DNA from: Phycisphaerales bacterium
GTDB lineage: Bacteria; Planctomycetota; Phycisphaerae; Phycisphaerales; UBA1924
Direction: 5' to 3'
NCBI GenBank assembly: GCA_029260475.1
Contig: JAJDDE010000076.1
Span: forward strand, 1-34,079
Length of the DNA stretch: 34,079 bases
Part shown: piece by piece, positions 3,521 to 21,246 of the stretch
Numbering within the stretch: the stretch's first letter is position 1
How the letters are laid out: each line of letters begins with the position of its first letter
Notes under the pieces: model-generated
Told to the model about the DNA's origin: nothing
Databases searched by the model: none
The model's input: the letters and a program-made list of their open reading frames with translations, nothing else
Translations under genes and position numbers: made by a program

Positions 3521-3523
3521 GAG

Positions 3524-3554: not shown

Positions 3555-3587
3555 CGAAGCCGTTGCCCTGCAAGCACTCAACTGGCA

Positions 3588-4010
3588 TGGCACAAACCCC
3601 GTCGCTGCTGGAACAAGAAGCGGCAGGGCAATACGTACTACGTGAGGGTCGGCTGGTGCGCTGGAAGGCCGCATGAGGCGGATAGAGCGCGACTACCCCA
3701 TCGCCTCGGTCGGCGGTGACATCGGCTTGCCCGCGGACGACCCCGAGTGCCCCGCGCGCGGCAACACGGAACGCACCGAGTTCGGGCGTGTGGCTATGGG
3801 CGCCGTCCTCGACATGCTCGAGGAGGCGAAGGACCTCGACTCGCCGACACCGAGGTGGGTCCAGTCAATCGGCAACCAGCGTGGTGTTGGGTCGCAACCC
3901 ACCTCGACCTTGATGCACTGCCCGGACGAGAGGCCGAGCGCGAGGTCACCCTCCAGTTGCAAGCCGGACGCAAGTCGCAGACAATCCAAACGCGCGGACC
4001 AACCCGCGCC
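3588..4010 (+). pseudogene. Decayed/frameshifted coding remnant of unknown family between tRNA-Arg and xdh genes
   Basis: Coding-like codon usage moves between frames: MAQTPSLLEQEAAGQYVLREGRLVRWKAA* (ATGA overlap) MRRIERDYPIASVGGDIGL...AVLDMLEEAKDLD, then in another frame LADTEVGPVNRQPAWCWVATHLDLDALPGREAEREVTLQLQAGRKSQTIQT. Confidence 0.4.
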
Positions 4011-4020
4011 GGAGGTTTGC

Positions 4021-6216
4021 GTGCAAAGACTCGAAGGCATCTCAAAGCTCACAGGTCGTGAGCGCTACGTCGACGACCTGCCCTTCGATGATGCCCTTTG
4101 GGGCATGACCGTCCGCACCCGCGTCCCCCGGGGGCGTATCCGCCAAATCAAGTTCGGTTCCGCGGTTGATTGGGCCGAGTTCGTCGTCGTCGATCATCGG
4201 GATATTCCCGGGCCCAACGAGGTCTTCCTCATCGAGCGCGACCAGCCCGTGCTCGCGGCGGACTACACGCGCCACATGCACGAGCCCGTTGTGCTTATCG
4301 CTCATCCCGATCGCGAGATGTGCCGCCGCGCCGTGGCGGACGTCCAGATTATCGTTGATGAAGAACCGCCCGCCCTCGACTACCGCCTCCCCGCGGGCCC
4401 CGAGCAGATACAGCGCAACAACGACAACCTGTTCAAAGTGCTCAAGATCGAGAAGGGCAATACCGAGCGCGCCCTCGAGCAAGCCGCCCACGTGGTTGAA
4501 GGGCTCTACGAAACCGGCGCTCAGGAACACGTCTATATAGAGAACCAGGGCATGATCGCCTGGGTGGAAGATGGTGTCGTCGTCACCAAGGGCTCGATGC
4601 AATGCCCGTACTACGTTGTCAACGCCCTCAAGCACGCACTCAACCGTGATGAGTCGCAGGTCCGCGTCATCCAGACGCCGACCGGCGGTGGCTTTGGTGG
4701 CAAGGAAGACTATCCCTCAAACCTCGCCCTCCACGCCGCACTCCTCGCCCTGAAGGCGAACCGCCCCGTCAAGATCATCTACGACCGCCCCGAAGACATG
4801 GCGGCAACAACGAAGCGCCACCCCGCGCAGACGCGACACCGGACAGGCTTCGACTCCGACGGCAAGCTCGTTGCCCAGCACATCGATGTCACAATGGATG
4901 GCGGCGCCTACGTCACGCTCTCGCCGGTTGTCCTGAGTCGCGGAATCATCCATGCCGCCGGACCCTACGCCTGTGACAATGTCCTGATTGACGGACGCGC
5001 GGTTCTTACCAACGCCGTTCCCTTCGGCGCCTTCCGCGGCTTTGGCGCCCCCCAAACCCTCTTCGCGCTCGAGCGTCACATGGATGTGTGCGCCGCTCAA
5101 CTCGGCATCGATCCCATCGAACTCCGCCGCATCAACCTCATCCGAGATGGACAGACCACCGCGACCGGACAGGTCATCAACGATGGAACCGATCGCACGG
5201 CAGTTCTCGATCAAGCCGCCCAAGCCATCCGCTTTCGTGAGAAGCAGCGAGCACACGAATCGTTCAATGCGACTGAGCCTTATCTCCGCCGCGGGGTCGG
5301 CCTCGCATGTTTTTGGCATGGAGCAGGCTTCACAGGCAGTGGCGAGGTCGCACTCAAGTCGCGCCTCCGCGTTCAAGGTCATGCCGACGGTCGAGTCGAG
5401 ATCCTCTCAAGCAGTACTGAGATGGGCCAGGGCACGTGGACCGTCTTCACGCAGATCGCCGCCGAGCACCTCGGCATCGCGCCCGCGGACATCATCATCA
5501 CCACGCCCGACACCTCGCGCGTTCCCAATAGCGGCCCGACGGTCGCCTCACGCACAGCTATGGTCGTGGGGCGTCTCGTCGAGCGCGCCTGCGACGACCT
5601 GCGCCAAAGTCTCGGCCTCGACAATGCCACCAGAGGTGAGGCTGTCACCGCCGCGATCCGCGCCTGGCACAACACGAACGCGGACCAATCTCTGTTTGGC
5701 GAAGCCCAGTACGAAAAGCCGCCCGGCATCAATTGGGACGACGACACATACGAGGGCGACGCGTACGGCACCTACGGCTGGGCGACGTACGCCGCTGAAG
5801 TCGAAATCGATCTGCGCACCTACACCGCCCGCGTTATCGATTTCGTCGCCGTTCAGGAAATCGGCAAAGTCCTCAACAATACTCTCGCACGAGGCCAGAT
5901 TCAGGGTGGCGTCGCGCAGGGCATCGGCTGGGCACTCCTCGAGGAATGCAAATGGGAGTTGGGAGGCATGAAGAACTGCCAGCTCACCAACTACATCATT
6001 CCCACGAGCGCTGACCTGCCACCCATCCGCGTCGCGTTCCTGGAAAACGCCTATGCCCACGGAGCGCAAGGAGCCAAGGGCATCGGCGAACTGCCTATGG
6101 ATGGACCCGGCCCCGCCATTGCAAACGCCATCGCCGACGCGATCGGCGTCCATGCCAATATCATCCCGCTGACGCCCGAACGCATCATGGGCATGATGGA
6201 CCAGACCCATGCCTGA
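4021..6216 (+). CDS. Xanthine dehydrogenase-type molybdopterin-binding (large) subunit
   Basis: LEGISKLTGRERYVDDLPF, PTGGGFGGKEDYPSNLALHAALLALK, PFGAFRGFGAPQTLFALE, STEMGQGTWTVFTQIAAE, QGAKGIGELPMDGPGPAIANAIADA. GTG at 4021 preceded by GGAGG (4011-4015); the ORF-track extension to 3673 probably belongs to the upstream remnant. Confidence 0.92.
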   Translation: MQRLEGISKLTGRERYVDDLPFDDALWGMTVRTRVPRGRIRQIKFGSAVDWAEFVVVDHRDIPGPNEVFLIERDQPVLAADYTRHMHEPVVLIAHPDREMCRRAVADVQIIVDEEPPALDYRLPAGPEQIQRNNDNLFKVLKIEKGNTERALEQAAHVVEGLYETGAQEHVYIENQGMIAWVEDGVVVTKGSMQCPYYVVNALKHALNRDESQVRVIQTPTGGGFGGKEDYPSNLALHAALLALKANRPVKIIYDRPEDMAATTKRHPAQTRHRTGFDSDGKLVAQHIDVTMDGGAYVTLSPVVLSRGIIHAAGPYACDNVLIDGRAVLTNAVPFGAFRGFGAPQTLFALERHMDVCAAQLGIDPIELRRINLIRDGQTTATGQVINDGTDRTAVLDQAAQAIRFREKQRAHESFNATEPYLRRGVGLACFWHGAGFTGSGEVALKSRLRVQGHADGRVEILSSSTEMGQGTWTVFTQIAAEHLGIAPADIIITTPDTSRVPNSGPTVASRTAMVVGRLVERACDDLRQSLGLDNATRGEAVTAAIRAWHNTNADQSLFGEAQYEKPPGINWDDDTYEGDAYGTYGWATYAAEVEIDLRTYTARVIDFVAVQEIGKVLNNTLARGQIQGGVAQGIGWALLEECKWELGGMKNCQLTNYIIPTSADLPPIRVAFLENAYAHGAQGAKGIGELPMDGPGPAIANAIADAIGVHANIIPLTPERIMGMMDQTHA

Positions 6217-6691
6217 TTCAAACAACATCAATGTCGAGTTCACCCTCAACGGCAATCCGATCTCCATCGATGTCGCACCGCGGGATCGATTGCTTGACAC
6301 ACTGCGCTACGCCCTTGATTTGACCGGGGCAAAGGAAGGTTGCGGCGAGGGCGAATGCGGAGCATGCACCGTGTACCTCGACGGAGTGCCCGCGAATTCC
6401 TGCCTCATCCCGACATACCAAGTGTCCGGTCGCGCAATCGACACGATCGAATCTATCCCCGCCGATGCACTGAGCGACATGCTCGCAAGCGGCGCCACTC
6501 AGTGCGGCGCGTGCACGCCTGGCGTCGTCATGACCGCGTGCTGGCTCAAGCGCCATCCCGAGTTGCTCAAGACACACACCGTCCGCGAACTCATGGCAGG
6601 CAACCTCTGCCGCTGCACCGGATACGACGGCATCATCGACGGCATTACCGACGGCTGTCAGAGCAATTACGATCGTGGGAACGCCTCGTGA
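6209..6691 (+). CDS. Xanthine dehydrogenase-type (2Fe-2S)-binding small subunit
   Basis: Plant ferredoxin cluster CGEGECGACTVYLDGVPANSC and second cluster QCGACTPGVVMTAC...NLCRCTGYDGI. Confidence 0.95.
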   Translation: MPDSNNINVEFTLNGNPISIDVAPRDRLLDTLRYALDLTGAKEGCGEGECGACTVYLDGVPANSCLIPTYQVSGRAIDTIESIPADALSDMLASGATQCGACTPGVVMTACWLKRHPELLKTHTVRELMAGNLCRCTGYDGIIDGITDGCQSNYDRGNAS

Positions 6692-7524
6692 AAGTGCTTT
6701 CGCCCCGATCACTCGACGAAGCCTGTGCCTTGCTCGCGCGCGATCCTGCGCCGCGCCCCATCGCCGGCGCTACCGATATCCTCGTGCATTGGCCAGACAA
6801 CCTCAACGCCAAAGCCGAAACCGAAACCTATCTCGACATCTCAGCGCTCTCCGACCTGCGCCACATCACTCGAGAAGATGATGTGCTCACACTCGGCGCG
6901 TTGACCACCTATTGGGATGTCATTCAAAGCCAAGCATGCCGCGACGACTTCCCCATGCTCCTTGACGCTGCTCGCCAGGTCGGATCTGTCCAGATCCAAT
7001 CCCGCGGCACATGGGCCGGCAACATTGTCAACGCATCGCCCGCCGCCGATGGCGTCCCCGTTCTCATGGCCTACGACGCGACCGTTGTGCTGCGATCAAA
7101 GTCGGGCGAGATGGAAGTCCGCCTCGATGAGTTCTACTCCGGGTACAAGCAGATGCAGCGCCGCCCTGACCAACTCATCACCGCCATCCGCATCCCGCGT
7201 CGCACCTATGACACTCAGATTTTCGAGAAAGTCGGCCCGCGCCGTGCACAGGCCATCTCCAAAGTTGGCCTGGCCATCACCCACTCAACCGAAGGGTGGC
7301 GCGTCGTCGCCGCCGCCGTCGCGCCGATGATTCTCCGTTGTAAATCAGTCGAGGCGCTCCTTGAATCTGGCGCTCCTGTCCGTTCTCCGGACGATCTTGC
7401 GCAGGCCATCGACCAAGACGTTGCGCCCATCGATGACATCCGTTCCACCCGCGAGTACCGCCAGCGCGTTCTCGCACGTCTGATCTACCACGACCTCAAG
7501 GGCGTGCTGCCCGCCTTCTCCTGA
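6688..7524 (+). CDS. Xanthine dehydrogenase-type FAD-binding medium subunit
   Basis: IAGATDILVHWPD, LGALTTYWDV, VQIQSRGTWAGNIVNASPAADGVPVLMAYDATVVL (FAD-binding motifs); GTG start overlaps the previous stop (GTGA). Confidence 0.9.
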   Translation: MKVLSPRSLDEACALLARDPAPRPIAGATDILVHWPDNLNAKAETETYLDISALSDLRHITREDDVLTLGALTTYWDVIQSQACRDDFPMLLDAARQVGSVQIQSRGTWAGNIVNASPAADGVPVLMAYDATVVLRSKSGEMEVRLDEFYSGYKQMQRRPDQLITAIRIPRRTYDTQIFEKVGPRRAQAISKVGLAITHSTEGWRVVAAAVAPMILRCKSVEALLESGAPVRSPDDLAQAIDQDVAPIDDIRSTREYRQRVLARLIYHDLKGVLPAFS

Positions 7525-7527
7525 CCG

Positions 7528-8310
7528 ATGTCAATCGATGCCAACATACTGCACGCCGCAGGCCAGCTCGCCGCAACAGGCCAGCCCTTCGTCTTGCTGA
7601 CCGTTATCGCGACCAAAGGCAGCGCACCCCGCGAACCCGGTGCACGCATGATCTGGCGCCCGGGCGACGGCTTCATCGGCACCATCGGCGGTGGGCAGTT
7701 CGAACACCTCGCGCTCGGAACCGCTGAGCGAATCTTTCGCGATCGATCCTGCACGACCGAGCAATTCGTCCTCGGCGCCGAAGCCGAACAGTGCTGCGGC
7801 GGCGTCATGGACGTCTTCATTGAATACATCGGGCCAGCCCAACGTCTCATCATTTTCGGTGCGGGCCACGTCTCGCAGGCGCTCACGCAGCTGCTCTCCG
7901 CAGCGCCCTTCGAGCTCATCATCGCTGACGATCGCCCCGACTGGAACACCGCCGATCGCTTCCCGACGGCTCAACGGTTGACTGACTATGAAGCCGCACT
8001 GCGCGCTCTGCGCATTGCGCCCGCCGCAACGCTCGCCTGCGTGATGACCTGCTCACACGACACCGACTTCGATCTGCTTCGCGGGCTGCTGTCACTCGAC
8101 AGCCCGCCCGCGTTCGTCGGGCTCATCGGATCGAAGAGCAAACGCGTAAGCCTCTTCACCAGGCTCGTCGCCTCAGGCATCGCGCAGGAACGTGTACAGA
8201 CGATCCACTGCCCCATAGGTGTGGGTGATACCGGCAAGGAACCAGACCTCCTCGCCATCTCGATCGCTGCGCAACTGCTCATCGAGGCAAAGAAACTTGC
8301 CGCCCTCTAG
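7528..8310 (+). CDS. xdhC: XdhC/CoxI family xanthine dehydrogenase maturation protein
   Basis: TVIATKGSAPREPGARMIWRPGDGFIGTIGGGQFE and LIIFGAGHVSQALTQLLSAAPFELIIADDRPDW, FVGLIGSKSKR. Confidence 0.92.
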   Translation: MSIDANILHAAGQLAATGQPFVLLTVIATKGSAPREPGARMIWRPGDGFIGTIGGGQFEHLALGTAERIFRDRSCTTEQFVLGAEAEQCCGGVMDVFIEYIGPAQRLIIFGAGHVSQALTQLLSAAPFELIIADDRPDWNTADRFPTAQRLTDYEAALRALRIAPAATLACVMTCSHDTDFDLLRGLLSLDSPPAFVGLIGSKSKRVSLFTRLVASGIAQERVQTIHCPIGVGDTGKEPDLLAISIAAQLLIEAKKLAAL

Positions 8311-8899
8311 CACAACCGATGTTGCGCTGGTTCTCGCCGCAGGTCGTGGCACCCGCATGGGTGGCCCCAAAGCACTCATGCACGTCGCGGGCAGTCCTTG
8401 GTGGCGCACGCAAAGCGCCCGCCTCGCCGCCTGGCACATCCCCGCGGTCTGGGTCGTATCTCAGCAGGTCCGCGACGCGCTCACGCCCGAAGGGGATGCG
8501 CCCAACATGATCACCGCTGAACCGGACGCGCCCATGTTCGCGAGCATCGCCGCGGGCCTGCGGCACCTCGCCGATGTGCCTCCCCGCGCCTTGTACCTGC
8601 TGCCGGTTGACGTCCCCGCCTGTTCGCCCGCCTGCATCGCAGCGTTCGGTGCGCACAACACCCGACCTGAAGTCCCAACCGTCAATGGCAAAGGCGGCCA
8701 CCCCGTTCGTCTCCCTTGGCCGTTTATTGAAACTCATATCAGACCGCATCTTACAAGCCCTGATGCACATACAGACGTGCGCCTCGATCATCTCCTCGCC
8801 GATCACGCTGCCCATCGCGAAGTTGGTGACCCCGCAGTCATCACCAACCTCAATACCCCGGAGGCGGTCGAAGTCTGGCTCACAAGTCAGGTACAGTAA
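8297..8899 (+). CDS. MobA-like NTP transferase, MocA type (molybdenum cofactor cytidylyltransferase-like)
   Basis: VALVLAAGRGTRMGGPKALMHVAG nucleotidyltransferase motif, LLPVDVPACSP, GKGGHPVRLP; TTG start overlapping xdhC. Confidence 0.8.
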   Translation: MPPSSTTDVALVLAAGRGTRMGGPKALMHVAGSPWWRTQSARLAAWHIPAVWVVSQQVRDALTPEGDAPNMITAEPDAPMFASIAAGLRHLADVPPRALYLLPVDVPACSPACIAAFGAHNTRPEVPTVNGKGGHPVRLPWPFIETHIRPHLTSPDAHTDVRLDHLLADHAAHREVGDPAVITNLNTPEAVEVWLTSQVQ

Positions 8900-8903
8900 A
8901 CCC

Positions 8904-10259
8904 ATGCAACGCACGCTCGATCACAATCAGCTCGCTCCGCTCCTCGCCAAACTCACCGAGGCCAACCGCGCATACGCGGGTGTCTATCCGGGCGAACCCG
9001 TCGATCGCCAGCCCGTCCACACCGTCTATGGTGGCGCTCAGCTCTTTCGTCGCGACACCGCGAGTCGCCTCGGCAAACTCGCCATCGCGTCGCTTGATGA
9101 GTATGCCCCCGACGCCGACACCTTTGCGAGCCTCCTCGGTATCGGCCCCAGCCTCGGGCCATCCATTTATGAGGCCGTCATTGCCAAACTCCACACCGAG
9201 CCGGTCGAAGACTTCCGTATCGATTTCGAAGATGGTTACGGCGTACGCCCCGAATCGGAAGAAGACCAGTGTGCGGTCCACGCTGCCGAGGAACTCGCGG
9301 CGGGCATGGAGCAAGGCACGCTTCCACCCTTCATCGGCATCCGCATCAAGAACTTCGGTGAAGATACGCTCGAGCGCGGCGTTCGTACGCTCGATCTCTT
9401 CCTTACCGCGCTCACGGCACGAACGAACGGCGCACTCCCTGCCAACTTCGTCGTCATGCTCCCCAAGGTCGTCTCCGAGCATCAGGTCGCGACACTGGTC
9501 GACATCTTCGAGATGTTCGAAGGCGCGGGCGCCTTTCCTCCCGGCTCACTCAAGATGGAGTTCATGGTCGAGACGACCCAGTCCGTTATCGATGAAAACG
9601 GCGCGGTTCCGATCAATCGCTTTGTTCGCGCCGCACGTGGACGCTGTGTCTCAGTCGCCCTGGGCGTGTACGACTACACCGCGAGCATCGGCGTCACCGC
9701 GGGGCACCAGCGCATCGATCACAACGCCTGCGACTTCGCCCGCCATATGATGCAGGTCTCGCTCGGCGGAAGCGGTCTCTATCTTTCCGACGGCGCCACC
9801 AACATCATGCCCGCACCGCCGCACAAGGCCCCGGATGGCGGCGCGCTCAGCGCTGCCGAGGCCCAGGCAAACCGCGACGCCGTCCAGTCTGGCTGGAAGC
9901 TTCACTTCCAACACTGTCGCCGTTCGCTCGAGCACGGGTACTACCAGGGTTGGGATCTCAATCCAGCCCAGCTCCCCACGCGCTACGCCGCACTGTATTC
10001 CTATTTCTGGGAATCGCTGCCCGGGGCGACCCAACGGCTCAGCAACTTCGTCGAAAAAGTGGCCCGCGCCACGATCGCTGGAGGCGGCGTGTTCGACGAC
10101 GCCGCAACCGCCCAGGGCCTGCTCACGTTTTTCATCCAGGGCTTGCGGCGTCGCGCCATCACCGAAGATCAGGTACGCGCCACCGGACTCACCGTCGACG
10201 AAATCCGAATGCGATCGTTCCTCGAAATCGTCAAGCATCGCGGGCTGTTGGATTCCTAG
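8904..10259 (+). CDS. DUF6986 / HpcH-HpaI aldolase/citrate-lyase-like protein
   Basis: VEDFRIDFEDGYGVRPESEED, SLKMEFMVETTQSVID, SVALGVYDYTASIGVTAGHQRIDHNACDFARH, WDLNPAQLPTRYAALYSYF; TIM-barrel C-C lyase-like motifs. Confidence 0.75.
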   Translation: MQRTLDHNQLAPLLAKLTEANRAYAGVYPGEPVDRQPVHTVYGGAQLFRRDTASRLGKLAIASLDEYAPDADTFASLLGIGPSLGPSIYEAVIAKLHTEPVEDFRIDFEDGYGVRPESEEDQCAVHAAEELAAGMEQGTLPPFIGIRIKNFGEDTLERGVRTLDLFLTALTARTNGALPANFVVMLPKVVSEHQVATLVDIFEMFEGAGAFPPGSLKMEFMVETTQSVIDENGAVPINRFVRAARGRCVSVALGVYDYTASIGVTAGHQRIDHNACDFARHMMQVSLGGSGLYLSDGATNIMPAPPHKAPDGGALSAAEAQANRDAVQSGWKLHFQHCRRSLEHGYYQGWDLNPAQLPTRYAALYSYFWESLPGATQRLSNFVEKVARATIAGGGVFDDAATAQGLLTFFIQGLRRRAITEDQVRATGLTVDEIRMRSFLEIVKHRGLLDS

Positions 10260-10264
10260 CGCTG

Positions 10265-11104
10265 CTATCGCCTCACGGTCGCCTCGATCATGCCGTGCGG
10301 CTCATCGATCGGCAGGAAAATCTCGTTGTCGTTCGGCATTCCGAATGGCGACAAGTCGACAAGCAAGTTGTGATTGTTGGGCATTGCTAGATCAATAGCA
10401 TCGATCGATGCGCAGGCTCCAAGCGCGGCTTCGCCCATTGCAAACAGTGTGTGCTGGACTGACAAGCTGTCATGTTTCGCGAACGTCTCAAGCAGCGCCT
10501 TGCGAATTGCGCACCGCGCATCGTTGAAATCGGCATCAGTACCAAGCGCCCATGTGGCTGTCACCGATGTCCCAAAGAGGCGGTCGTCCGCGTCTTTGAG
10601 TGTCGTAAATTTGTCCCGCATGAAATCTGAAAAACCCGACTGCGTCGTCTTCAGGATCATCCAGTCGTCGATACCCGAGGTGATCCTCGCGCCTTCGCGA
10701 CCAACCACCGCGGCGCACGTCGCGGTCTCGGGCCCAACACGTTGGAAACTGTGATCGTGTGCCACACCTCCAACTTCCATCCGCTCCCACTGCACCTGCG
10801 AAATATCGATATGCGCTTCTGCGATATGCTTGCTCGTCGAAACGAAGTGCCGCCCGAGATGCAGCGCGAATGCTTCGATCGAAGACATCGGGTGATCTTT
10901 GGCGAGCGCGTATACGGTGTTCTTCATCGTGTCCGTGGGGAGCACGCCGGTGTTGTCTGCCTTGGTGTGGGCCGCATCAAAGTCACCCTCAAGCCCGATC
11001 TTCACCGTCAGTTCGCGAACACTGTGCTTCGCCCCATCCCGAAACACCTTCAGCACGCGCACCCGCGACTTGCCATACCGATTCCATCCAAGCGATGCGG
11101 CCAT
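10265..11104 (-). CDS. Urate oxidase (uricase)
   Basis: YGKSRVRVLKV, ADNTGVLPTDTMKNTVYALAKDH, VGGVAHDHSFQR, SGIDDWMILKTTQSGFSDFMRDKFTTLKDADDRLFGTSVTATW. Confidence 0.97.
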   Translation of the reverse strand: MAASLGWNRYGKSRVRVLKVFRDGAKHSVRELTVKIGLEGDFDAAHTKADNTGVLPTDTMKNTVYALAKDHPMSSIEAFALHLGRHFVSTSKHIAEAHIDISQVQWERMEVGGVAHDHSFQRVGPETATCAAVVGREGARITSGIDDWMILKTTQSGFSDFMRDKFTTLKDADDRLFGTSVTATWALGTDADFNDARCAIRKALLETFAKHDSLSVQHTLFAMGEAALGACASIDAIDLAMPNNHNLLVDLSPFGMPNDNEIFLPIDEPHGMIEATVRR

Positions 11105-11107
11105 CTC

Positions 11108-11452
11108 TTAACTCCCTCGATAGGTTGAATACCCAAACGGACTCAGGAGCAACGGTACGTGGTAGTGCTCCTCCGCGCGCGCAATCTCAAAGACAATCTC
11201 AACGAACGGATAAAAGCTCGTCGCGCCCTGTGCACGGAAATACTCCGCAACGTCGAACCGAAGCCGATGCACCGCCGCCTGCAATGGGCCGGCATCGGCG
11301 AAACCTTCGACGCGTCCGTCCGCATCCGTGAACGCCCGCCCAAGCTCCTGCCAGTTTCCGTCCTCGTTTACGCGCTCGAGCGCCACCGGCACCTCGGCTG
11401 CCGGCCGGCCGCGCGAGATGTCCAATATGTGTGTCGAAATCCGACCCATCAA
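11108..11452 (-). CDS. uraH: 5-hydroxyisourate hydrolase (transthyretin-like)
   Basis: ISTHILDISRGRPAAEVPVALE N-terminus and HYHVPLLLSPFGYSTYRGS C-terminal tetrapeptide. Confidence 0.96.
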   Translation of the reverse strand: MMGRISTHILDISRGRPAAEVPVALERVNEDGNWQELGRAFTDADGRVEGFADAGPLQAAVHRLRFDVAEYFRAQGATSFYPFVEIVFEIARAEEHYHVPLLLSPFGYSTYRGS

Positions 11453-11952
11453 TCCACCAGCTTCCCAAGACGCAGTCTCGTGATCAAGGCCTGCTGCTCC
11501 GTTGCGATCTTCATTTCCTTCGCGGGAGTGTTCCCGAGGCGCTCCTGCAGATTCTTCAGCATCTCTGCCGCCGACTTCCCGGTCGCGCAGATCAAGAATA
11601 CATGGCCGAACCTGTCCTCGTACGCCCGGTTCCCCTCGAGCAGCGCCGCCTCAACATCTGAGGTTGCCTGTGCCATCCCCACCTGCTCCTTTGACGACCA
11701 CCGCGACGTCGAAGCGTGCTTCGCGCCCGCGCGCTCGCCGATTCGCGGATGACCCGCAAACGCCTCGAGCCAGTCCGCTTCACCGAGTGCAAACCAAATC
11801 GCATCCGCTTTCTGTACGACCTCTTCGTCTGAGGCGAAGGGGCGTGCGCTGATCATCTGGGTTGCCCACGCGATCGAGGCGCAACACTTCAACAATGCTT
11901 CCCGCGCCGTGTCGGCATCTGCACCGTTCAAGAATCGCGCGATCGCCATCAC
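11449..11952 (-). CDS. uraD: OHCU decarboxylase
   Basis: LKCCASIAWATQM, GHPRIGERAG, SSKEQVGMAQA, YEDRFGHVFLICATGKSAAEML; 4-bp overlap with uraH. Confidence 0.96.
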   Translation of the reverse strand: MMAIARFLNGADADTAREALLKCCASIAWATQMISARPFASDEEVVQKADAIWFALGEADWLEAFAGHPRIGERAGAKHASTSRWSSKEQVGMAQATSDVEAALLEGNRAYEDRFGHVFLICATGKSAAEMLKNLQERLGNTPAKEMKIATEQQALITRLRLGKLVD

Positions 11953-12950
11953 ACCGGCCGCCCAAAGACCCGCAGTCGGCTCACGCCGCCGTCCGGATGG
12001 ATGTTCAACCGCACATGCGTTGCAGGACCTTGGTCCACCAATTCCCCGTCGAACGAACGCTCTTCATGCGCGTTGAGCTTGGTCTCTCCGAGCAATGCCC
12101 GCCACGCGGGTCCGCCTTCTGCGTTCGGGACGAGCATCGCGCTCGTCGCACCCTCTGCATCACAGACTTCGATGTCACACGAATCCGGGTAGTTGCCCTT
12201 GAAGTGATTCGTATCAACAACCACCCGCTCGATCACGCCTCGACGCCCAAGCCGCAACACGACCCAGTCATAGCCCGGGCCCCGCCTGCGCTTTGTCTCC
12301 CATCCATCTCCCATATGGTCGGATCGCCCCGGCATGATCAAGTTCCTTGGCTCGGAGAAGAACGCGTCTGAACATCCCATTGGCTGGCCGCCATGCTCAA
12401 CCGCTGCCAAATCACACACCGATGACGCCGACACAATCGACGCCCAGTCCGCCGCCACCTCGCCCCACACACGAAACCGCGCGACCCCGCCATCCGGGTG
12501 GATGTTCAGCCGTACATGCGTCGTCCGCGCATCCCCGGTAACCGGAATCACGTTCTCAAAGTGCGCTTCGATCGGCGTCTTGCCAAGCAGCACACCCCAC
12601 GCCGCCTCCGCAAACGCCTCGTCCGGCGCATCCGTCGCAAGTTCACACCGATCGATCGAGACCGATTCCGGGGCATTGCCGCGGAAGTGATTCGTATCCA
12701 CCGTGACCCCGCGCACAATCCCCGGCAAGCCAAGCTTGATGACGCAACGGTCATGCCCCGGCGTCCTCCGCCGGCGCGACTCCCACCCGTCCATCCACTT
12801 CCCGCGCTCCGTGTACTTGTCCGCCAGAAAGATCCCTCGCCCCGGTTTGAGCAGATTCTCTTTCTCCGCGAAGAAGTCATCGTTCGCGAACAGCGCGCGT
12901 CCACCAACCCGTTCCGCCGCGAGGTCTATCAACTCAGTAAACGAACTCAT
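11949..12950 (-). CDS. alc: Allantoicase
   Basis: Duplicated domain: ALFANDDFFAEKENLLKPGRG...WMDGWESRRRRTPGHDRCVIKLGLPGIVRGVTVDTNHFRGN and CSDAFFSEPRNLIMPGRSDHMGDGWETKRRRGPGYDWVVLRLGRRGVIERVVVDTNHFKGN; THVRLNIHPDGGV twice. Confidence 0.97.
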   Translation of the reverse strand: MSSFTELIDLAAERVGGRALFANDDFFAEKENLLKPGRGIFLADKYTERGKWMDGWESRRRRTPGHDRCVIKLGLPGIVRGVTVDTNHFRGNAPESVSIDRCELATDAPDEAFAEAAWGVLLGKTPIEAHFENVIPVTGDARTTHVRLNIHPDGGVARFRVWGEVAADWASIVSASSVCDLAAVEHGGQPMGCSDAFFSEPRNLIMPGRSDHMGDGWETKRRRGPGYDWVVLRLGRRGVIERVVVDTNHFKGNYPDSCDIEVCDAEGATSAMLVPNAEGGPAWRALLGETKLNAHEERSFDGELVDQGPATHVRLNIHPDGGVSRLRVFGRPV

Positions 12951-14299
12951 GACACCTCCCGATTGATCAACCGCCCATGCGTCGGGTGGATGCGCCCTTC
13001 GCGATAGACCTCAACACCCCGCACAAACGTCGACTCCACAACCCCGCGAAGCGTCATACCCTCATACGCCGTGAGCGCGTGCCTGTGCTCGAGCGATGCT
13101 CCGCGCACCTTAAACGATTCCTCGGGGTGCCACACAACCAGATCCGCATCATACCCGGGCGCGATCTGCCCCTTCCGATCTCCGAGCCCTGCCAACTGCG
13201 CTGGTGCTGCACACAACCACCGCGCGATCTCACCCAGCCCAAATCCACGGAACGACGCTCCGGTCCATGCCGCTGCAAGCCCCAATTGCAACGATGTGAT
13301 CCCGCCCCACGCCGCTCCAAAGTCGCCGCTCTCCAAACACTTGCCTGCGACCGGTGAAGGAGAGTGATCCGACGCGATCAAATCCAATGAACCATCCTTG
13401 AGCCCCTGCCAAAGCCGCTCTCGATGCTCGCGCTCGCGGATTGGGGGTGCACACTTGAACTGTGTCCCGCCGCTCGGCACATCTTCCGCCGCAAACGTCA
13501 GATAGTGTTGGCACGTTTCTGCCGAAATCGCGATCCCGCGCGCCTTCGCTGTTGCGATGAGTGCTGTCGCATCGCCGTCAGCAACGTGCACAACATGCAC
13601 GCGCAGGCCCGTCTGCTCACTCACGCGGATCAGCATCTCAATTGCGCTGCGCTCCGCGGCTGCGGGTCGTGTCGAAAGATACGCCGCATATGACTGCTCG
13701 TGCCCTCGTTCAATCGACGGCGCTTCTGCAAGAACCGCCGGATCCTCCGCGTGCACGAGCAGCGGCAAACCCGCGGCGACCAACACCGGTGCCGCTGCCC
13801 GGATGTCACTCTCTTGCGCATTCTCGAACTCATCGACACCCGAGGGGCTCAGGAAGCACTTGAACCCGAGCACCCCGCCATCGATCAACCCAGGCAGTTC
13901 ATTGATGTTCCCCGGCACCACTCCGCCCCAAAGCCCAACATCGACGCTGCACTTCTCCATTGCTGCGCTTCGCTTCGCCGCCAGGCCCGCGACCGTTGTC
14001 GTCGCCGGAACACTGTTGAGTGGCATATCAACAAGCGTCGTCACACCGCCCGCAGCGGCGGCGCGAGTGGCCGTCTCAAACCCCTCCCAATCCGCACGCC
14101 CCGGCTCATTGATATGGACATGCGTATCGACAACGCCAGCCATGACGACCGCATCAGCAACGTCAACGATGCGATCCGCATTCCCCGCCCCGTCGCGCAC
14201 CCCTTCAATCGTACCGCCCTTGCACAGAACCCACCCCGGGCGCACTCCACGCGGTGTCACGATCCGCGAACTCCCTATCGCCAGTGTTGCTGTGCTCAT
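12947..14299 (-). CDS. allB: Allantoinase
   Basis: GVVDTHVHINEPGRADWEGFETATRAAAAGGVTTLVDMPLNS, GVLGFKCFLSPSGVDEF, IASDHSPSPVAGK, AWGGITSLQLGL. ATG at 14299 chosen over ORF-track start at 14461. Confidence 0.95.
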   Translation of the reverse strand: MSTATLAIGSSRIVTPRGVRPGWVLCKGGTIEGVRDGAGNADRIVDVADAVVMAGVVDTHVHINEPGRADWEGFETATRAAAAGGVTTLVDMPLNSVPATTTVAGLAAKRSAAMEKCSVDVGLWGGVVPGNINELPGLIDGGVLGFKCFLSPSGVDEFENAQESDIRAAAPVLVAAGLPLLVHAEDPAVLAEAPSIERGHEQSYAAYLSTRPAAAERSAIEMLIRVSEQTGLRVHVVHVADGDATALIATAKARGIAISAETCQHYLTFAAEDVPSGGTQFKCAPPIREREHRERLWQGLKDGSLDLIASDHSPSPVAGKCLESGDFGAAWGGITSLQLGLAAAWTGASFRGFGLGEIARWLCAAPAQLAGLGDRKGQIAPGYDADLVVWHPEESFKVRGASLEHRHALTAYEGMTLRGVVESTFVRGVEVYREGRIHPTHGRLINREVS

Positions 14300-14605
14300 G
14301 CGGCGAAAGCATACGCCAGACCGCCATCGCGCCGGTGCCAACTCCGTCAAGCGGCGGGTCATCCCGTGCTGGTCGAGCAGCCATTTGCGCCGCCTCCTGA
14401 CGGCGCTCTCAAAGACCAATCCGGCCTCATTTCGTGCGGCGCACTTCCGTGGCGGCCTCAAGTACCCCCCCTCGAAGCATGCCCATCACGCGACAACAAG
14501 CACATCAACATGCGACGTCCCGATTGCGCATCTCCTGGAAACGGATGCCGGCGACTCTCGGTGTCATACGTTCACCCCTCACGTGGGGCCGCTACTCCCC
14601 CACAC

Positions 14606-15673
14606 TCATCCGCCGAGGGAATTCATTGCCACGTTGGGCCGGCGGAAACGATCGGTGCCGATGCCGTGACCGGACTGCTTGCGCCAGACCGCATCCAGGA
14701 TCTCGTCCTTGATCTTCGGATCATCTGCCCCCGAACGGAGGAGCTGCATGAGATCTCCTTCCGTGGATCCGAATAGACAGGGGCGGATCGATCCGTCGGC
14801 GCTGATCCGCAATCTGTTGCACGCTCCGCAGAACGTGCGGGTAATGGGCGCGACCAAGCCGATCCTTCCCGGCGAGCCGTCCGCAAACTCGTACAGCTCG
14901 GAAGTGCTGCTCTTGCTCGCCCGCCCGATCGGCCGCAATGGGTACACCTCATGAATCATGTCATGCGTTTGTGCCGCCGAGATAAACGAGTTGCTCGTCC
15001 ATTTCCCCCCGCCGTCGAGGGGCATGAACTCGATGAAACGCATATCAACCCGGTGGGCCCGTGCCAGCCCCGCTAAGGGCACGGCCTGGCTGTCGTTGAG
15101 CCCCGGGAGGAGCACCGCGTTCAGCTTGGTTTCGCGATACCCCATCGCGATTGCCGCATCGACCCCCTCCATCACCCTGGCGACAGACGACGTGCTGCGC
15201 GTCAGCTCTCGGAACAGCTCTTCCTCTGCGGCGTCGATGCTCACGGTGATCCGATCGAGCCCGAGCCGCCGCCAACGCTCGAGCCTGTCGGGCGTGAGCA
15301 ACGAGCCGTTGGTGGTCATCGCCAGGTCATCGATATCAAGCCGCGCGATACGCTCGATGATCTCATCGAGGTCCGCTCGCGCGGTGGGCTCCCCTCCGGT
15401 CAGACGGACTTTGCGTACCCCCAGCTCCGTACACACGCGAGCAACGCGCTCGAGTTCGATCGCGCTCAGCAGAGAATCGCCGGGAAGGAATCGCTGATCG
15501 GGTTCCATGCAGTACACACAGCGGAAATTGCACCGATCGGTCACACTCAATCGTAAATCATGGACCACCCTCCCGTGCGCATCACGGATGTGATCGCGAC
15601 CCGCCCGTCGTGCAACAGCAGTCCGAGTCCTGGCTCGACCGAAGATGGGGAGTTGGATGTTGTTCATGGACAC
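14606..15673 (-). CDS. moaA: GTP 3',8-cyclase
   Basis: Radical SAM CNFRCVYC, VRKVRLTGGEPTAR, RFIEFMPLDGG, second cluster CGACNRLRISADGSIRPC, C-terminal GG. Confidence 0.97.
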   Translation of the reverse strand: MSMNNIQLPIFGRARTRTAVARRAGRDHIRDAHGRVVHDLRLSVTDRCNFRCVYCMEPDQRFLPGDSLLSAIELERVARVCTELGVRKVRLTGGEPTARADLDEIIERIARLDIDDLAMTTNGSLLTPDRLERWRRLGLDRITVSIDAAEEELFRELTRSTSSVARVMEGVDAAIAMGYRETKLNAVLLPGLNDSQAVPLAGLARAHRVDMRFIEFMPLDGGGKWTSNSFISAAQTHDMIHEVYPLRPIGRASKSSTSELYEFADGSPGRIGLVAPITRTFCGACNRLRISADGSIRPCLFGSTEGDLMQLLRSGADDPKIKDEILDAVWRKQSGHGIGTDRFRRPNVAMNSLGG

Positions 15674-15790
15674 AATCGGGCGCTCGCATTCGATTCGATT
15701 GTAGCCTCAGCGCCCGGTGCCACGCCCCGCAGTGCCGCGACGACCAGCACGATACCCACGGCGGGATGAACGGCTACTGTGATCTCAGCC

Positions 15791-15865
15791 ATGGCCCTCA
15801 AAGTCGCCATCCCGATCTTCACGAACAAGGTGGGCCTGCACATCAAGGAGGGGCGAGTTGACTGA
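15791..15865 (+). other. Candidate 24-codon leader ORF overlapping the CMD-MoaD start
   Basis: MALKVAIPIFTNKVGLHIKEGRVD*; contains AAGGAGGGG before the downstream TTG start and its stop overlaps that ORF by 8 nt. Confidence 0.3.
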
Positions 15866-16460
15866 CCACAATCTCCCCAGCACGTTTAGGCGGTTCGCTA
15901 CCCAATTCCCCGGCGTCGTGGCGTGCCACGAGAACATGGCCAAGGCGGTAGACGCTGCGGGGCCGCTCGATGCCAAGACCCGTGCCCTGATCAAAATCGG
16001 GATCTGTGTGGGCGCGGAAATGGAGTCCGCGCTGCGGAGCCACGTCCAGAGCGCCAGGCAAGCAGGAGCCACCAAGCCCGAGATCGAGCAAGCCATACTC
16101 CAGGCCATGAACACGTGTGGGTTTCACCGAACGGTCGCGGCGTGGAGCTGGGCGCAGATTCAATTCCAGCGTGACGACCACTCCGAGGCCGCAGGTCCAG
16201 CCGGTGCGAGCGCTGTGCGGATTTCCGTCAAGCTCTTTGGGCCGCAGGCTCACGTCGCCAACACCGACGAGGTCCGGCTCACATTCGAACACGACCCCAC
16301 GTGCGCACAGGTGCTCGATGCGCTGGGCGATTCGTGCCCCGAGATCAGTCGTACGTTGTCCGGCTCGCGACTCGCCGTCAACCAGGGCTTCGCAACGCCC
16401 GAGGCAATCGTTCGCGAATCAGACGAGGTGGCGCTCATCGGGCTTGTGGGTGGTGGGTAG
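15858..16460 (+). CDS. Fusion of carboxymuconolactone decarboxylase/AhpD-like domain with MoaD/ThiS-like sulfur carrier
   Basis: N-terminal AAGPLDAKTRALIKIGICVGAEMESALRSHVQSARQAGATKPEIEQAILQA (CMD fold, no CxxC) followed by AVRISVKLFGPQAHV...LAVNQGFATPEAIVRESDEVALIGLVGGG (MoaD, terminal Gly-Gly). TTG start with strong SD. Confidence 0.85.
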   Translation: MTDHNLPSTFRRFATQFPGVVACHENMAKAVDAAGPLDAKTRALIKIGICVGAEMESALRSHVQSARQAGATKPEIEQAILQAMNTCGFHRTVAAWSWAQIQFQRDDHSEAAGPAGASAVRISVKLFGPQAHVANTDEVRLTFEHDPTCAQVLDALGDSCPEISRTLSGSRLAVNQGFATPEAIVRESDEVALIGLVGGG

Positions 16461-16471
16461 GTACGCAACAC

Positions 16472-16915
16472 ATGGATACAGAGAAGAACATTAGAATATC
16501 GATCACGGAAGGACCGCTCCCCGCACTCCACAGCACCCCCACCAACCGATTGTCGTGCGAGGGTGCCGGGGCGATGCTCCGCTTCGACGGCATCGTTCGC
16601 CCGACAGAAGACGATCGCCCCATCGACGGTATCGCGTACGAGGCGTACGAGCCGATGGCCCAGAACGCACTCCGCGAGCTCGCACGCACTGCGATTGAGA
16701 AGTTCGGAGTGCTGGCGATCACCGTCGAGCACAGCAAAGGCATGGTCCCAAATTCCATGTGCTCATTCCGGTTACAGGTGGCCTCCACCCACCGGAAGGA
16801 AGGCTTGGCGGCCTTAGACTGGTTCATTGATGAGATGAAGCGCGACGTCCCACTTTGGAAACACCATGCCTGGTCCAGCGTGCTCCCAAACAGCGAGGAG
16901 GTCAACGATGCATGA
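16472..16915 (+). CDS. moaE: Molybdopterin synthase catalytic subunit
   Basis: GAMLRFDGIVRPTEDDRPIDGIAYEAYEPMAQ, ITVEHSKGMVP, STHRKEGLAALDWFIDEMKRDVPLWKHH. Confidence 0.93.
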   Translation: MDTEKNIRISITEGPLPALHSTPTNRLSCEGAGAMLRFDGIVRPTEDDRPIDGIAYEAYEPMAQNALRELARTAIEKFGVLAITVEHSKGMVPNSMCSFRLQVASTHRKEGLAALDWFIDEMKRDVPLWKHHAWSSVLPNSEEVNDA

Positions 16916-18140
16916 TCCCTCCAGTACTTTGCGCCACCGCGCTCAACACCCCGATCTCGCGTGCGCCGAATTGACGGACACACTTGGCGCAGTCGGAACC
17001 GAGACCATCTCGCTCGCGGAAGCGTCGGGACGTGTACTTGCGGAGCAGGTATTCGCCGATCGCGACAGTCCCCCATGCGATGTTTCATCGATGGACGGGT
17101 ACGGCGTGCGCATCGCCGATGCAAATATGGGCCCGCTCCCGGTCTCGGGAGAGGTGCTCATGGGAGAGCGCCCGACGGAATTGCCGCCCGGGCACGCCGT
17201 CAAGGTCTTTACCGGCGGGCCTGTTCCGACGGGGGTGGAGTGCATCGTGCGGCGCGAACTCACCGATGAACGCGCCGTCTCTCGCGATGGCGTCGTCACC
17301 ATCCCCGCGGACGCGGACGATCTCTACCCGGGCGCGTACATCCGGCGTAAGGGCGAGAATATCAAGCGAGGCGCCGCGGTCATCGATCCGGGCGTAGCCA
17401 TCTCACCGGCGCACGTCTCCGCGCTCGCTGCGTTCGGGTACGACACGGTGCGCGTGTTCAAGCGGGTGCGAGTGACGCTGCTGATTACAGGGAACGAGCT
17501 GCGTGATACGGGTGTCTCCTCCTCCGAATTCACCATACGAGATTCCAACGGCCCCGCCCTGTGCGCACTATTCGCGCAGCGCCCGTGGATCGATGTCATC
17601 GCGTGCGACCGCGTTACTGACGAACGAAGCGTGCTGCTCAACAAGGCCGACGGCGCGCTGCGAACAAGCGACGCGGTTGTGTTCACAGGCGGCGTTTCGA
17701 TGGGAGATCACGACTACGTTCCCGGTGTGCTCGATGAACTCGGTGTGCGGACGATCTTCCACACACTCCCTATCAGGCCCGGAAAGCCCCTCTTGGGCGC
17801 CGTCGGCGCCGAGGGACAGGCGGTGCTCGGGCTCCCGGGCAACCCCGCGTCCGCACTCACCACCATGCTCCGCCTGGGCATGGGCGTTCTCGCGAAGAGA
17901 GCCGGGCTCACAGGCAACCCGGTGCAACCTCGGAGCGTGCGCATCGCGAACGCGGACGAAAAACAACTCCACTTGTGGTGGTTCCGCCCGGTCCGCCGAC
18001 GCGACGCCAACGCGGTGGAACTCGTCAGCACGAACGGATCCGGAGACCTCGCGGCGCTCGCCAACTCGGACGGATTCGTGCAGCAAGCACAGGGCAAGAC
18101 CATCGAGCACACCTCCGAGTACTGGGGCTGGACACCGTGA
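16908..18140 (+). CDS. moeA: Molybdopterin molybdenumtransferase
   Basis: SPPCDVSSMDGYGVR, KVFTGGPVPTGVECIVRRE, LLITGNEL, VFTGGVSMGDHDYVPGVL, RPGKPLLGAVG...VLGLPGNPAS. Confidence 0.96.
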   Translation: MHDPSSTLRHRAQHPDLACAELTDTLGAVGTETISLAEASGRVLAEQVFADRDSPPCDVSSMDGYGVRIADANMGPLPVSGEVLMGERPTELPPGHAVKVFTGGPVPTGVECIVRRELTDERAVSRDGVVTIPADADDLYPGAYIRRKGENIKRGAAVIDPGVAISPAHVSALAAFGYDTVRVFKRVRVTLLITGNELRDTGVSSSEFTIRDSNGPALCALFAQRPWIDVIACDRVTDERSVLLNKADGALRTSDAVVFTGGVSMGDHDYVPGVLDELGVRTIFHTLPIRPGKPLLGAVGAEGQAVLGLPGNPASALTTMLRLGMGVLAKRAGLTGNPVQPRSVRIANADEKQLHLWWFRPVRRRDANAVELVSTNGSGDLAALANSDGFVQQAQGKTIEHTSEYWGWTP

Positions 18141-18631
18141 CCGAGCACTCCTCTCGCAATCCGTTCACGCATCTCAACGACCAGGGCGCGGCTCGCATGG
18201 TGGACGTCACCGAGAAGCCCGCGACCGTTCGGCGCGCGGTCGCCGAAGCGGTCGTCCGGGTGAGCGATGAACTCGCCGACGCGATCCGTGCCGACAACGT
18301 CAAGAAGGGCAACGTGCTCGAGATTGCCCGGCTCGCGGGCATCCAGGGCGCCAAGCACACCTCCCTGCTGATCCCGCTCTGCCATCCGCTGCCGATCGAC
18401 GCGGTCAGGGTCGAACTCACCCTCGAAAAGAGCACCGTCACGATCCACGCTGAGGTGAAGACCACATGGAAGACCGGCGTCGAGATGGAAGCCCTCACCG
18501 CGGTGACGACCGCGGCACTGACGATCATCGACACCGGCAAAGCGATCGACAAAGGAATCGTCATCGAGCGCATCCGTCTCCTCTCAAAGACCGGCGGGAA
18601 AAGCGGCGACTATCTCGCACCGAGTCTCTGA
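18137..18631 (+). CDS. moaC: Cyclic pyranopterin monophosphate synthase
   Basis: FTHLNDQGAARMVDVTEKPATVRRAVAEA, KKGNVLEIARLAGIQGAKHTSLLIPLCHPLPID, GVEMEALTAVTTAALTIID. Confidence 0.97.
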   Translation: MTEHSSRNPFTHLNDQGAARMVDVTEKPATVRRAVAEAVVRVSDELADAIRADNVKKGNVLEIARLAGIQGAKHTSLLIPLCHPLPIDAVRVELTLEKSTVTIHAEVKTTWKTGVEMEALTAVTTAALTIIDTGKAIDKGIVIERIRLLSKTGGKSGDYLAPSL

Positions 18632-18668
18632 TCCCCGAGGCAAGGCCTCTCCACGAACGGGTTTCCTC

Positions 18669-19262
18669 ATGGACCGTCTCTCCCCACCGATCACCGTCAC
18701 CGTGCTCACCGTGTCAGACCGGTGTTCCCGCGGCGAAACCACCGACACCTCCGGACCCGGCCTCCAGGACATCTGTCGCGATCAACTCGGCGCCACGGTC
18801 ATCGGCACGCGGTGTGTCCCCGACGAGCCGGCCGACATCACAGAGGCAATCCGCAATTGGGCTTTGCAAGGCGTGTGTGGGGGTCAGCACGCGCGTGTGA
18901 AACCGGATCTCATCATCACCACCGGGGGCACCGGCCTCGCCCCGCGCGACGTGACCCCCGAGGCCACGGCGTCCGTCTTAGAACGCCGGCACCCCGCCCT
19001 GCTCGAACTCGCTCGGTTGCGCTGCTATCAGATCACCCCGCGGACGTTCCTCTCGCGGGGTGAGTGCGGGACCCTCGCGCGTTCCCTCATCATCAACCTC
19101 CCCGGTTCTGTGCGCGGCAGTTCCGAGACGCTCGGCGCCATACTCGACATCCTCCCACACGCCATCGAGACCCTCCGTGGCGATGTCCAGGACGACGGCA
19201 GAACGGATGTCACGCCGACAACCGGAAGAGTCATCCAGCATCACGACAAGGGCGGGGCGTGA
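18669..19262 (+). CDS. MogA/MoaB-type molybdopterin adenylyltransferase
   Basis: VLTVSDRCSRGETTDTSGPGL, PDLIITTGGTGLAPRDVTPEAT, LIINLPGSVRGSSETL. Confidence 0.93.
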   Translation: MDRLSPPITVTVLTVSDRCSRGETTDTSGPGLQDICRDQLGATVIGTRCVPDEPADITEAIRNWALQGVCGGQHARVKPDLIITTGGTGLAPRDVTPEATASVLERRHPALLELARLRCYQITPRTFLSRGECGTLARSLIINLPGSVRGSSETLGAILDILPHAIETLRGDVQDDGRTDVTPTTGRVIQHHDKGGA

Positions 19263-20554
19263 CGCACCGAGTCACCCAAGGCGCACACGACTCCGAGCAC
19301 GGGAACCAAGCACGCTGGTGGGGACGATGGTTCGCGCCGCGCGAATGGGCCGGATCTCTCGCCGACCTGGGCACGTTCCTTCCTCTGGCGCTCGGGGTGT
19401 CGGTCGCGTGCGGTCTCGACCTCGCGGTGATCTTCGTCGGCGCGGCGCTCATGTGCGTTACGAGCGCCCTCCTCTTTCGCCAGCCGATCCCACCCCAGCC
19501 CATGAAGGCGATCGCCGCGATAGCCATCGCAGGCGGTGTACCCGCCGGAGCGATCGCGGCATCCGGGATCTGGATGGGCCTCTTCCTCGTCGTGCTCGTC
19601 GTCACCGGGCTTGTCGAACACGCCTTGAAGTTCATCCCCAAACCGGTCGTGATCGCGGTCCAGGTCGCGGTTGGGTTCAAACTCTTACTCGCGGCATTGT
19701 CCGCGGTCCTCACCGGCGACGGATCGCTCGGCACGGGAGAGCCCTTGCCGCTTCTCGGGTGGGACAGCATCCTCATCGCGCTCATTGCGCTTTCGCTGTT
19801 CATGTTCTGCAAGAAGATGCTACTCGTCCTCCCGCTCGTCTTCCTCGCGGGCATCGGCATCGCATGGGCGTCCGGCGAACTCATCGGCCCGATGATCACG
19901 CCGGCGCTCCCCACCCCTGGCCTGGTCACGATGACGCGAGAGCATTGGATCTCGGGCCTCGTGGATCTCGCGGGTGTGCAGTTCCCGCTCACGCTGCTGA
20001 ATTCTGTCGTCGCGGTCTGCGCGCTGAGCGCTCGGTACTTCCCCGACCACCCGGTCCCCCCACGCAGGATGGCCGCCGGCGTGGCCGGCTTGAATCTCCT
20101 CATCTCACCACTCGGTGCCATGCCCATGTGCTACGGCTCGGGAGGGCTCGCCGCGCAACACTGTTTCGGCGCACGCACCGGCGGCGCACCGATCATCCTC
20201 GGCTTCTTCTTGCTCGTCACCGCCGTCCTCTTCGGCCCGACCCTCACGAGCATCCTGATGGCGTATCCCAGGTCCATCCTCGCGATGATGCTGGTCCCCG
20301 CTGCCGTGGCGCTCATCCGCTTCCTGTTCGATATACGAGACGCCCGCTCGCTCGCGATCGTAGTTCCAGCGGTGCTCGTAGCACTCTGTTCAAACATGCT
20401 GTGGGGGTTCCTCACCGGGATGGCCCTGGCGAGCACCCTACGGCTGAGCCGCGGAGCGCCCGTACTTCAGCGTGCTCCGGGCGATACGCTCGACACTGGC
20501 ACCGTCAACGAAACCAACGCAACCATGAGAAACGACGACCCGGATGCCCGATGA
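19259..20554 (+). CDS. MOT1/SulP-like putative molybdate (sulfate) transporter
   Basis: GSLADLGTFLPLALGVS, QPIPPQPMKAIAAIAIAGGVP, LGAMPMCYGSGGLAAQHCFGARTGGAPI plus many TM segments; GTG start overlaps the MogA stop. Confidence 0.85.
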   Translation: MTHRVTQGAHDSEHGNQARWWGRWFAPREWAGSLADLGTFLPLALGVSVACGLDLAVIFVGAALMCVTSALLFRQPIPPQPMKAIAAIAIAGGVPAGAIAASGIWMGLFLVVLVVTGLVEHALKFIPKPVVIAVQVAVGFKLLLAALSAVLTGDGSLGTGEPLPLLGWDSILIALIALSLFMFCKKMLLVLPLVFLAGIGIAWASGELIGPMITPALPTPGLVTMTREHWISGLVDLAGVQFPLTLLNSVVAVCALSARYFPDHPVPPRRMAAGVAGLNLLISPLGAMPMCYGSGGLAAQHCFGARTGGAPIILGFFLLVTAVLFGPTLTSILMAYPRSILAMMLVPAAVALIRFLFDIRDARSLAIVVPAVLVALCSNMLWGFLTGMALASTLRLSRGAPVLQRAPGDTLDTGTVNETNATMRNDDPDAR

Positions 20555-21093
20555 CCTACAACGACCGGCGTACACCCTGGCCGGTGGGAAGAGCTCTCGA
20601 TTCGGTGCGGACAACTCGCCCGGTTTGTATCGCCTGTGGCCAGCTCCGTCACTACGGTCGCTGAGCATGAAAGTGGCTATCACGACCTGGGTGTGCGAAC
20701 AATCGCCGACGCGCACCAAAGAACCGGACCCTTCACTGGTATGTACGCCGCTTTGACGAACACACACCTGTCCTGATGTGGCAACGGATCGCCATCGAGG
20801 GGACTCGTGCTCTCTGGCGACCCGGTCTCTTTGAATGCACGTGGTGCGAGATCCTCGCGCAACACCGCAGCGGCCCTGCACGCGCCATCGCGTTTCGGCA
20901 CGACAAGTGGGAGCCCCTGTTCGGGCTGCATCGGACCGATCTGTTGCGCGATGTGACGCTTCGCATTGAGGCACGGTTGCACTCACTGCAGCGCCTACTG
21001 GATGATCTGCGGGCGTTCGCGGTAGAGCCCCCGGAGGGCTGGCCGAGCGTATTGCAAGTCAACACACCGGTCGCTGGATCGAATCCTGCCTAG
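20544..21093 (+). pseudogene. mobA: Frameshifted remnant of mobA (molybdenum cofactor guanylyltransferase)
   Basis: Fragments in successive frames: MPDDLQRPAYTLAGGKSSRFGADN; PVASSVTTVAEHESGYHDLGVRTIADAHQRTGPFTGMYAALTNT* ; VLSGDPVSLNA; WCEILAQHRSGPARAIAFRHDKWEPLFGLHRTDLLRDVTLRIEARLHSLQRLLDDLRAFAVEPPEGWPSVLQVNTP. Confidence 0.8.
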
Positions 21094-21101
21094 GGCGCTT
21101 C
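21067..21101 (+). repeat. Degenerate copy of tRNA-Arg 3' end (candidate distal att site)
   Basis: CCGGTCGCTGGATCGAATCCTGCCTAGGGCGCTTC vs 3486-3520; 5 mismatches in 35 nt, no gaps. Confidence 0.7.
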
Positions 21102-21246
21102 CACCGTCGATCTAACGGCCCACAAGGCCTTGTCCGACGTAAGGGGTTCTCAAATCCCGGGATCCGAACTATCGTGACGCCCTGCACGCCCGGCGGTGGC
21201 GTGGAATGAGGTTTGTGACGCGGTGGTAGGCGTCGGGAGGTGATCG

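Follow-up and report, generated by a model that had tools for sequence, protein, structure and literature searches.

Introduction

Islands inserted into tRNA genes follow the model used in the Islander database, in which the tDNA fragment at the distal end of the island is the original 3′ end of the host gene (PMC4383910). Islander islands have length limits of 2–200 kb and are required to carry an integrase gene on board (PMC4383910). Concerning cargo, the genomic islands of Pelagibacter have been reported to carry purine-degradation genes (PMC11247762).

The locus described here lies in the window, i.e. the whole 34,079-nucleotide stretch of DNA that was analyzed (contig JAJDDE010000076.1 of Phycisphaerales bacterium assembly GCA_029260475.1). 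It shares with Islander islands (PMC4383910) (i) an intact tDNA, (ii) a piece of that tDNA's 3′ end lying downstream as a direct repeat, and (iii) tyrosine-integrase sequence beside the tDNA, but it differs from them in having only remnants of the integrase and a distal att site of 86% identity. As in Pelagibacter (PMC11247762), purine catabolism forms part of the flexible, island-borne gene content; those islands, however, belong to another phylum, and the paper describes neither a tRNA att pair nor a set of molybdenum cofactor (Moco) genes (molybdopterin is absent from its text). The element is a decayed example of the well-known tRNA-island type, with an unusually self-contained cargo.

Results

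A degenerate copy of the tRNA-Arg(tct) 3′ end

The initial annotation had drawn attention to a 35-bp sequence (positions 21067–21101, plus strand), read as an orphan 3′ fragment of a tRNA-Arg gene and as a degenerate att site. The letters are exactly as reported there. This sequence matches positions 3486–3520 (plus strand) of the window in direct orientation and without gaps (30 of 35 bases identical, ~86%, i.e. 5 mismatches), and this second copy covers the 3′ part of an intact tRNA-Arg(tct) gene (3443–3517, plus strand; detected by ARAGORN and by Rfam model RF00005 with 70.9 bits). The resemblance to a tRNA-Arg 3′ end was thus confirmed, and the term “orphan” is true locally, although the partner tRNA gene is present 17.6 kb away. 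The repeat spans the region from the variable loop of the tRNA through its 3′ end plus CTTC. Beyond it, the two sites aligned in register match at only 10 of 43 upstream and 8 of 40 downstream positions, which gives the repeat sharp edges and agrees with the annotated lack of a 5′ tRNA half. ARAGORN and Rfam recognized tRNA-Arg(tct) as the single tRNA gene of the window, and neither produced a full tRNA model over 21067–21101.

The initial annotation had also relied on a match in the tail that follows the tRNA. The repeat does run through CTTC; nevertheless, the GCTT tail is weak evidence on its own, because it is common to most tRNA-Arg(tct) genes of the relatives.

The specificity of the match was examined within the window and in the genome, a fragmented assembly of 210 contigs (3.4 Mb). 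BLAST with region 21040–21115 as a query (E≤1) returned only the site itself and 3486–3520 (E value of 6.3e-5); similar fragments spread through the genome were not seen. The next-best tRNA locus, in a comparison that included most of the 44 tRNAs, matches the 35-mer at 24 of 35 positions, six bases below tRNA-Arg(tct), and a better-matching tRNA elsewhere in the genome was therefore rejected. The second-best place within the window gave 21/35, and the best match in a random control of 60 Markov-1 windows was 24/35.

As read from the sequence, the five mismatches are divided between the T-loop (one), the T-stem (one) and the acceptor stem (three), the placement originally proposed. The T-stem substitution breaks a T-A pair, while those in the acceptor stem convert a G-C pair into a G-U wobble, break a C-G pair and change the terminal G-U into G-C. 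The last of these is a T to C change; both T and C occur before the discriminator base in the tRNA-Arg(tct) genes of relatives, and the fragment may retain the ancestral tRNA 3′ end of the host.

The gene said to abut the fragment was misidentified. A predicted MobA-like gene is located at 8219–8899, and the actual neighbors of the fragment are a gene for a MOT1-type molybdate transporter (~19266–20554) and a 105-aa ORF (20776–21093) without Pfam or PHROG matches. The stop codon of this ORF falls inside the att fragment.

Integrase remains behind tRNA-Arg(tct)

The DNA directly behind the tRNA-Arg(tct) gene contains remnants, and only remnants, of a tRNA-targeting tyrosine integrase. Sequence shared between the window and a tRNA-Lys element on contig C54 of the same genome (GAGAACGCGGCCC...) starts precisely at the point where the att repeat stops, after CTTC. 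The element-borne stretch at 3521–3578 (plus strand), which includes an inverted repeat and, behind it, a run of T, is common to both (blastn alignment with locus L009). Two pieces of an integrase pseudogene, also on the plus strand, were recognized: (i) an N-terminal piece (3554–3664), with 82% DNA identity to L009 positions 518–627 and 61% protein identity to the C54 integrase, and (ii) a second piece (3660–3845), with 87% DNA identity to L009 positions 799–987 and 59% protein identity to the full-length integrase of contig C123. Overall, the DNA identity of the pieces to the C54 element is 81–87%. About 172 bases are deleted between them relative to C54, and the remainder of the gene is missing. 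The C54 integrase, placed behind tRNA-Lys, is itself truncated.

Full-length integrases of this subfamily (464 aa; 93.5% identical to each other) are encoded in the same genome behind tRNA-Asp (C123) and tRNA-Arg(acg) (C124). The C123 protein matches Pfam Phage_integrase under the cut-off and a PHROG integrase family at 1.6e-10. Both elements resemble that of the window in the integrase subfamily and in its position directly behind the tRNA 3′ end, and differ from it in that their integrases are full length, whereas the window has remnants. No distal tRNA repeat was found for either of them within the 18.5–20 kb read. More distant relatives of the integrase, in other genomes of the family, are mostly located within ~1.5 kb of a tRNA gene (Arg, Leu, Lys or Pro). 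Another fragment of the same subfamily (83% identical) is present in the same genome at C206:18933–19391, and a tRNA-Gly-like partial tRNA (C123:8780–8829; 29 bits) begins just where the full-length integrase gene ends.

Three comparable loci of the genome combine a tRNA gene, a repeat of part of it and integrase sequence; those on C153 and C22 are read as further tRNA islands. On contig C153, tRNA-Met (11909–11984, minus strand) is accompanied by a full-length integrase and an exact 38-base repeat (2402–2439) 9.5 kb away. The C22 contig carries tRNA-Val (19654–19728, minus strand), an integrase and a repeat with 44 of 45 bases identical (7809–7853) at a distance of 11.8 kb; ARAGORN calls a second tRNA-Val at this distal repeat. 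The third case is tRNA-Gly(gcc) of contig C209 (11615–11686), whose 5′ part is repeated over 37 bases (9356–9392), with an integrase fragment in between; the position of this repeat points to integration on the 5′ side, a less usual arrangement.

Extent and composition of the probable island

The two att copies delimit a region of ~17.6 kb (3486 to 21101). Its GC skew was analyzed by a two-change-point fit, with 300 block permutations as a control. The fitted change points, 3890 and 21190, each lie close to an att copy, and the gain of the fit was 159, compared to a permutation maximum of 59. On the plus strand, the skew is mostly positive in the flanks and negative within the island, though the cargo genes point both ways. 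Moreover, most cargo genes have a lower GC content at third codon positions than the right-hand flank. Since the repeat and the integrase remains are accompanied by a change of GC-skew sign at both ends, the att pair appears to bound an immobilized island.

The arrangement is that of a tRNA-borne island: the intact target tRNA and a direct 3′ fragment of the same tRNA, located downstream and reaching the tRNA end, are on the same contig, the length falls within 2–200 kb, integrase remains lie beside the tRNA and the composition is unlike that of the flanks. Analysis of the main ORFs (Pfam, NCBIfam) recognized no structural phage or conjugation genes between the att sites; only metabolic genes are present there, unlike in a prophage or an integrative conjugative element.

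Genes for purine breakdown

The left part of the island encodes predicted enzymes of purine catabolism. The xanthine dehydrogenase (XDH) genes, all on the plus strand, comprise those for the Mo subunit (3673–6216; Pfam MoCoBD_1/2, Ald_Xan_dh_C), the FeS subunit (6209–6691; Fer2_2, Fer2), the FAD subunit (6690–7524; FAD_binding_5 in residues 118–287 of an ORF listed as 6340–7524, whose true start is near 6690) and the maturation factor XdhC (7528–8310; XdhC_C, XdhC_CoxI). The first ~60 codons of the Mo-subunit ORF are an integrase remnant, homology to XDH begins near 4021, and its relatives align only from residue 91–117 on. The ORF thus starts in the integrase remnant (3673–4020) and passes into XDH without a change of frame, and an automatic annotation pipeline would yield a chimeric N-terminus of ~100 residues.

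A DUF6986 protein (malate synthase/aldolase-like; Pfam DUF6986, 542 bits) is encoded further downstream on the same strand (8900–10259; ORF listed from 8574). It is followed, on the minus strand, by genes for uricase (10265–11104; Pfam Uricase), hydroxyisourate hydrolase (HIUase) (11108–11452; NCBIfam TIGR02962, above cut-off), OHCU decarboxylase (11449–11952; TIGR03180, above cut-off), allantoicase (11949–12950; Pfam Allantoicase) and allantoinase (12947–14461; Pfam Amidohydro_1, homologous to a gene located beside allantoicase in loci L145 and L147). Uricase was detected in only 5 of 61 genomes of the family, which makes this cargo patchy.

Genes for molybdenum cofactor synthesis and molybdate uptake

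The right part of the island is occupied by predicted Moco genes, and the island as a whole holds most of the set needed to make the cofactor. With the exception of moaA (14606–15673, minus strand; Pfam Radical_SAM and Mob_synth_C), they lie on the plus strand and encode a CMD-domain/MoaD protein (15858–16460; CMD and ThiS), MoaE (16301–16915 as listed, though the gene probably starts further in; MoaE domain in residues 83–181), MoeA (16866–18140; MoeA_N, MoCF_biosynth), MoaC (17975–18631 as listed; MoaC domain from residue 75) and MoaB/Mog (18669–19262; MoCF_biosynth). The last gene of the set is that of the MOT1-type transporter (19266–20554, plus strand; two stretches of MFS_MOT1 in ORF 19064–20554). 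The MobA/MocA-like nucleotidyltransferase gene mentioned above (8219–8899, plus strand; NTP_transf_3) is located in the purine part. The CMD-MoaD protein appears to fuse a carboxymuconolactone-decarboxylase-like domain to MoaD, and its two parts match separate places in one relative (G007).

The search for moaA gave 28 of 61 family genomes above the cut-off and a single match in the genome studied, namely the island copy (the assembly is ~97% complete, and a second copy could lie in a gap). The island may form a self-contained module of purine-catabolism, cofactor and molybdate-uptake genes, so that the whole Moco-making ability of the host would rest on one horizontally acquired, frozen island; we consider the chances of this to be even.

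Comparison with relatives

Similar purine blocks were identified in four relatives (G007, G074, G029 and G076), and in G074 the Moco genes adjoin the block. In relatives, purine and Moco genes are also found with no tRNA fragment nearby, and this cargo is therefore not an obligate passenger of such elements. A tRNA-Leu gene is located beside the G074 purine/Moco block, but no repeat of that tRNA was found and no island is assigned there. The gene for PEP carboxylase, chosen as an identity yardstick against the cargo, was found in only one of four relatives.

No empty site was seen in the relatives searched, among which there is no other genome of the genus, and neither island flank showed synteny in the family relatives. 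Attempts to reach such a site through synteny of the aquaporin gene, the gene for the 21247 protein or the pullulanase gene failed, the relatives being too distant; no tRNA-Arg was found beside aquaporin.

An orphan 3′ half of tRNA-Arg(tct), beginning in the anticodon loop, was found in another relative (G139, contig C32, locus L210), ~0.9 kb from an integrase homolog. Over 45 bases it is identical to the tRNA-Arg(tct) gene of a congener (G078), and it is probably an att site at the same type of tRNA in another lineage. Since this half lies near an integrase homolog, tRNA-Arg(tct) appears to be targeted there as well.

Discussion

The cognate tRNA gene, the integrase remains, the cargo and the switch in composition at both ends argue that the fragment is, as the initial annotation proposed, a degenerate att site, and we hold this to be very likely whichever way the cargo arrived. 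It is also likely, with somewhat less assurance, that the fragment is the distal att site of a ~17.6-kb genomic island delivered into tRNA-Arg(tct) by an integrase and now immobile.

Such an island could have arisen as follows. A tyrosine integrase of the C123/C124 subfamily would have acted on the 3′ half of tRNA-Arg(tct) and integrated the element there, the tRNA gene being restored by the element's own copy of the 3′ end. The original end, displaced to the far side and not needed as a tRNA, would have been free to accumulate substitutions, and the integrase gene would then have been gutted by deletions, leaving the island stuck. Purine breakdown, starting with xanthine and heading toward glyoxylate and urea, may account for the retention of the island, along with the Moco genes and molybdate uptake. 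Judging from the sequence, the island looks immobile, with an integrase in pieces and 5 of 35 positions mismatched in the distal att site. “Displacement” is thus an apt term within the usual tRNA-island model, but the annotated “decay” may be only part of the history, as the five mismatches may reflect decay or, in part, older differences between the host and element copies.

A composite history would also leave a decayed att site at 21067–21101, yet the cargo would not have been brought by that integrase: a small element, now mostly lost, would have produced the tRNA-Arg duplication and the integrase remains, and the purine/Moco block would have arrived otherwise, e.g. by recombination between the att sites. 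The similar blocks without tRNA repeats in relatives speak for such a course, as do the lack of recognized conjugation or phage genes between the att sites and the start of XDH homology shortly after the integrase remnant. The switch of GC skew, however, coincides with the att sites and not with an internal point, and we regard a composite origin as rather unlikely.

Readings in which the fragment is not an att site are weaker still. Duplications of tRNA genes occur, and family genomes hold several similar tRNAs, so the fragment might be what is left of a complete second tRNA-Arg gene (a tandem duplication or a segmental copy) after loss of its 5′ half. This is very improbable: the similarity breaks off within the tRNA, at the variable loop, and nothing of the 5′ part is left, as is the case for integrase repeats, and in the relative G139 a comparable repeat of this type of tRNA, beginning in the anticodon loop, lies near an integrase homolog. 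Chance resemblance of ordinary DNA to a T-arm, with native purine and Moco genes, could be invoked because T-arm sequences are alike among tRNAs and 35 bases at 86% identity is a short match. It is scarcely credible, given that the best match, and the sole one in the genome, is to a tRNA on the same contig and in the same orientation, six bases above the next tRNA, with integrase remains at the other end and a skew switch at both.

With this att pair, both ends of a metabolic island are located in the Phycisphaerae, a lineage for which a full-text search yielded little literature on tRNA/integrase islands. No publication was found that links genomic islands both with uricase (or uric acid) and with XDH or Moco, a weak negative given the limits of the search. 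Within this one genome, the small integrase subfamily is tied to four or more distinct tRNA genes, and the way in which target choice evolves can thereby be tested. The gene content of the island suggests that purine catabolism and the genes for its cofactor could spread as one package.
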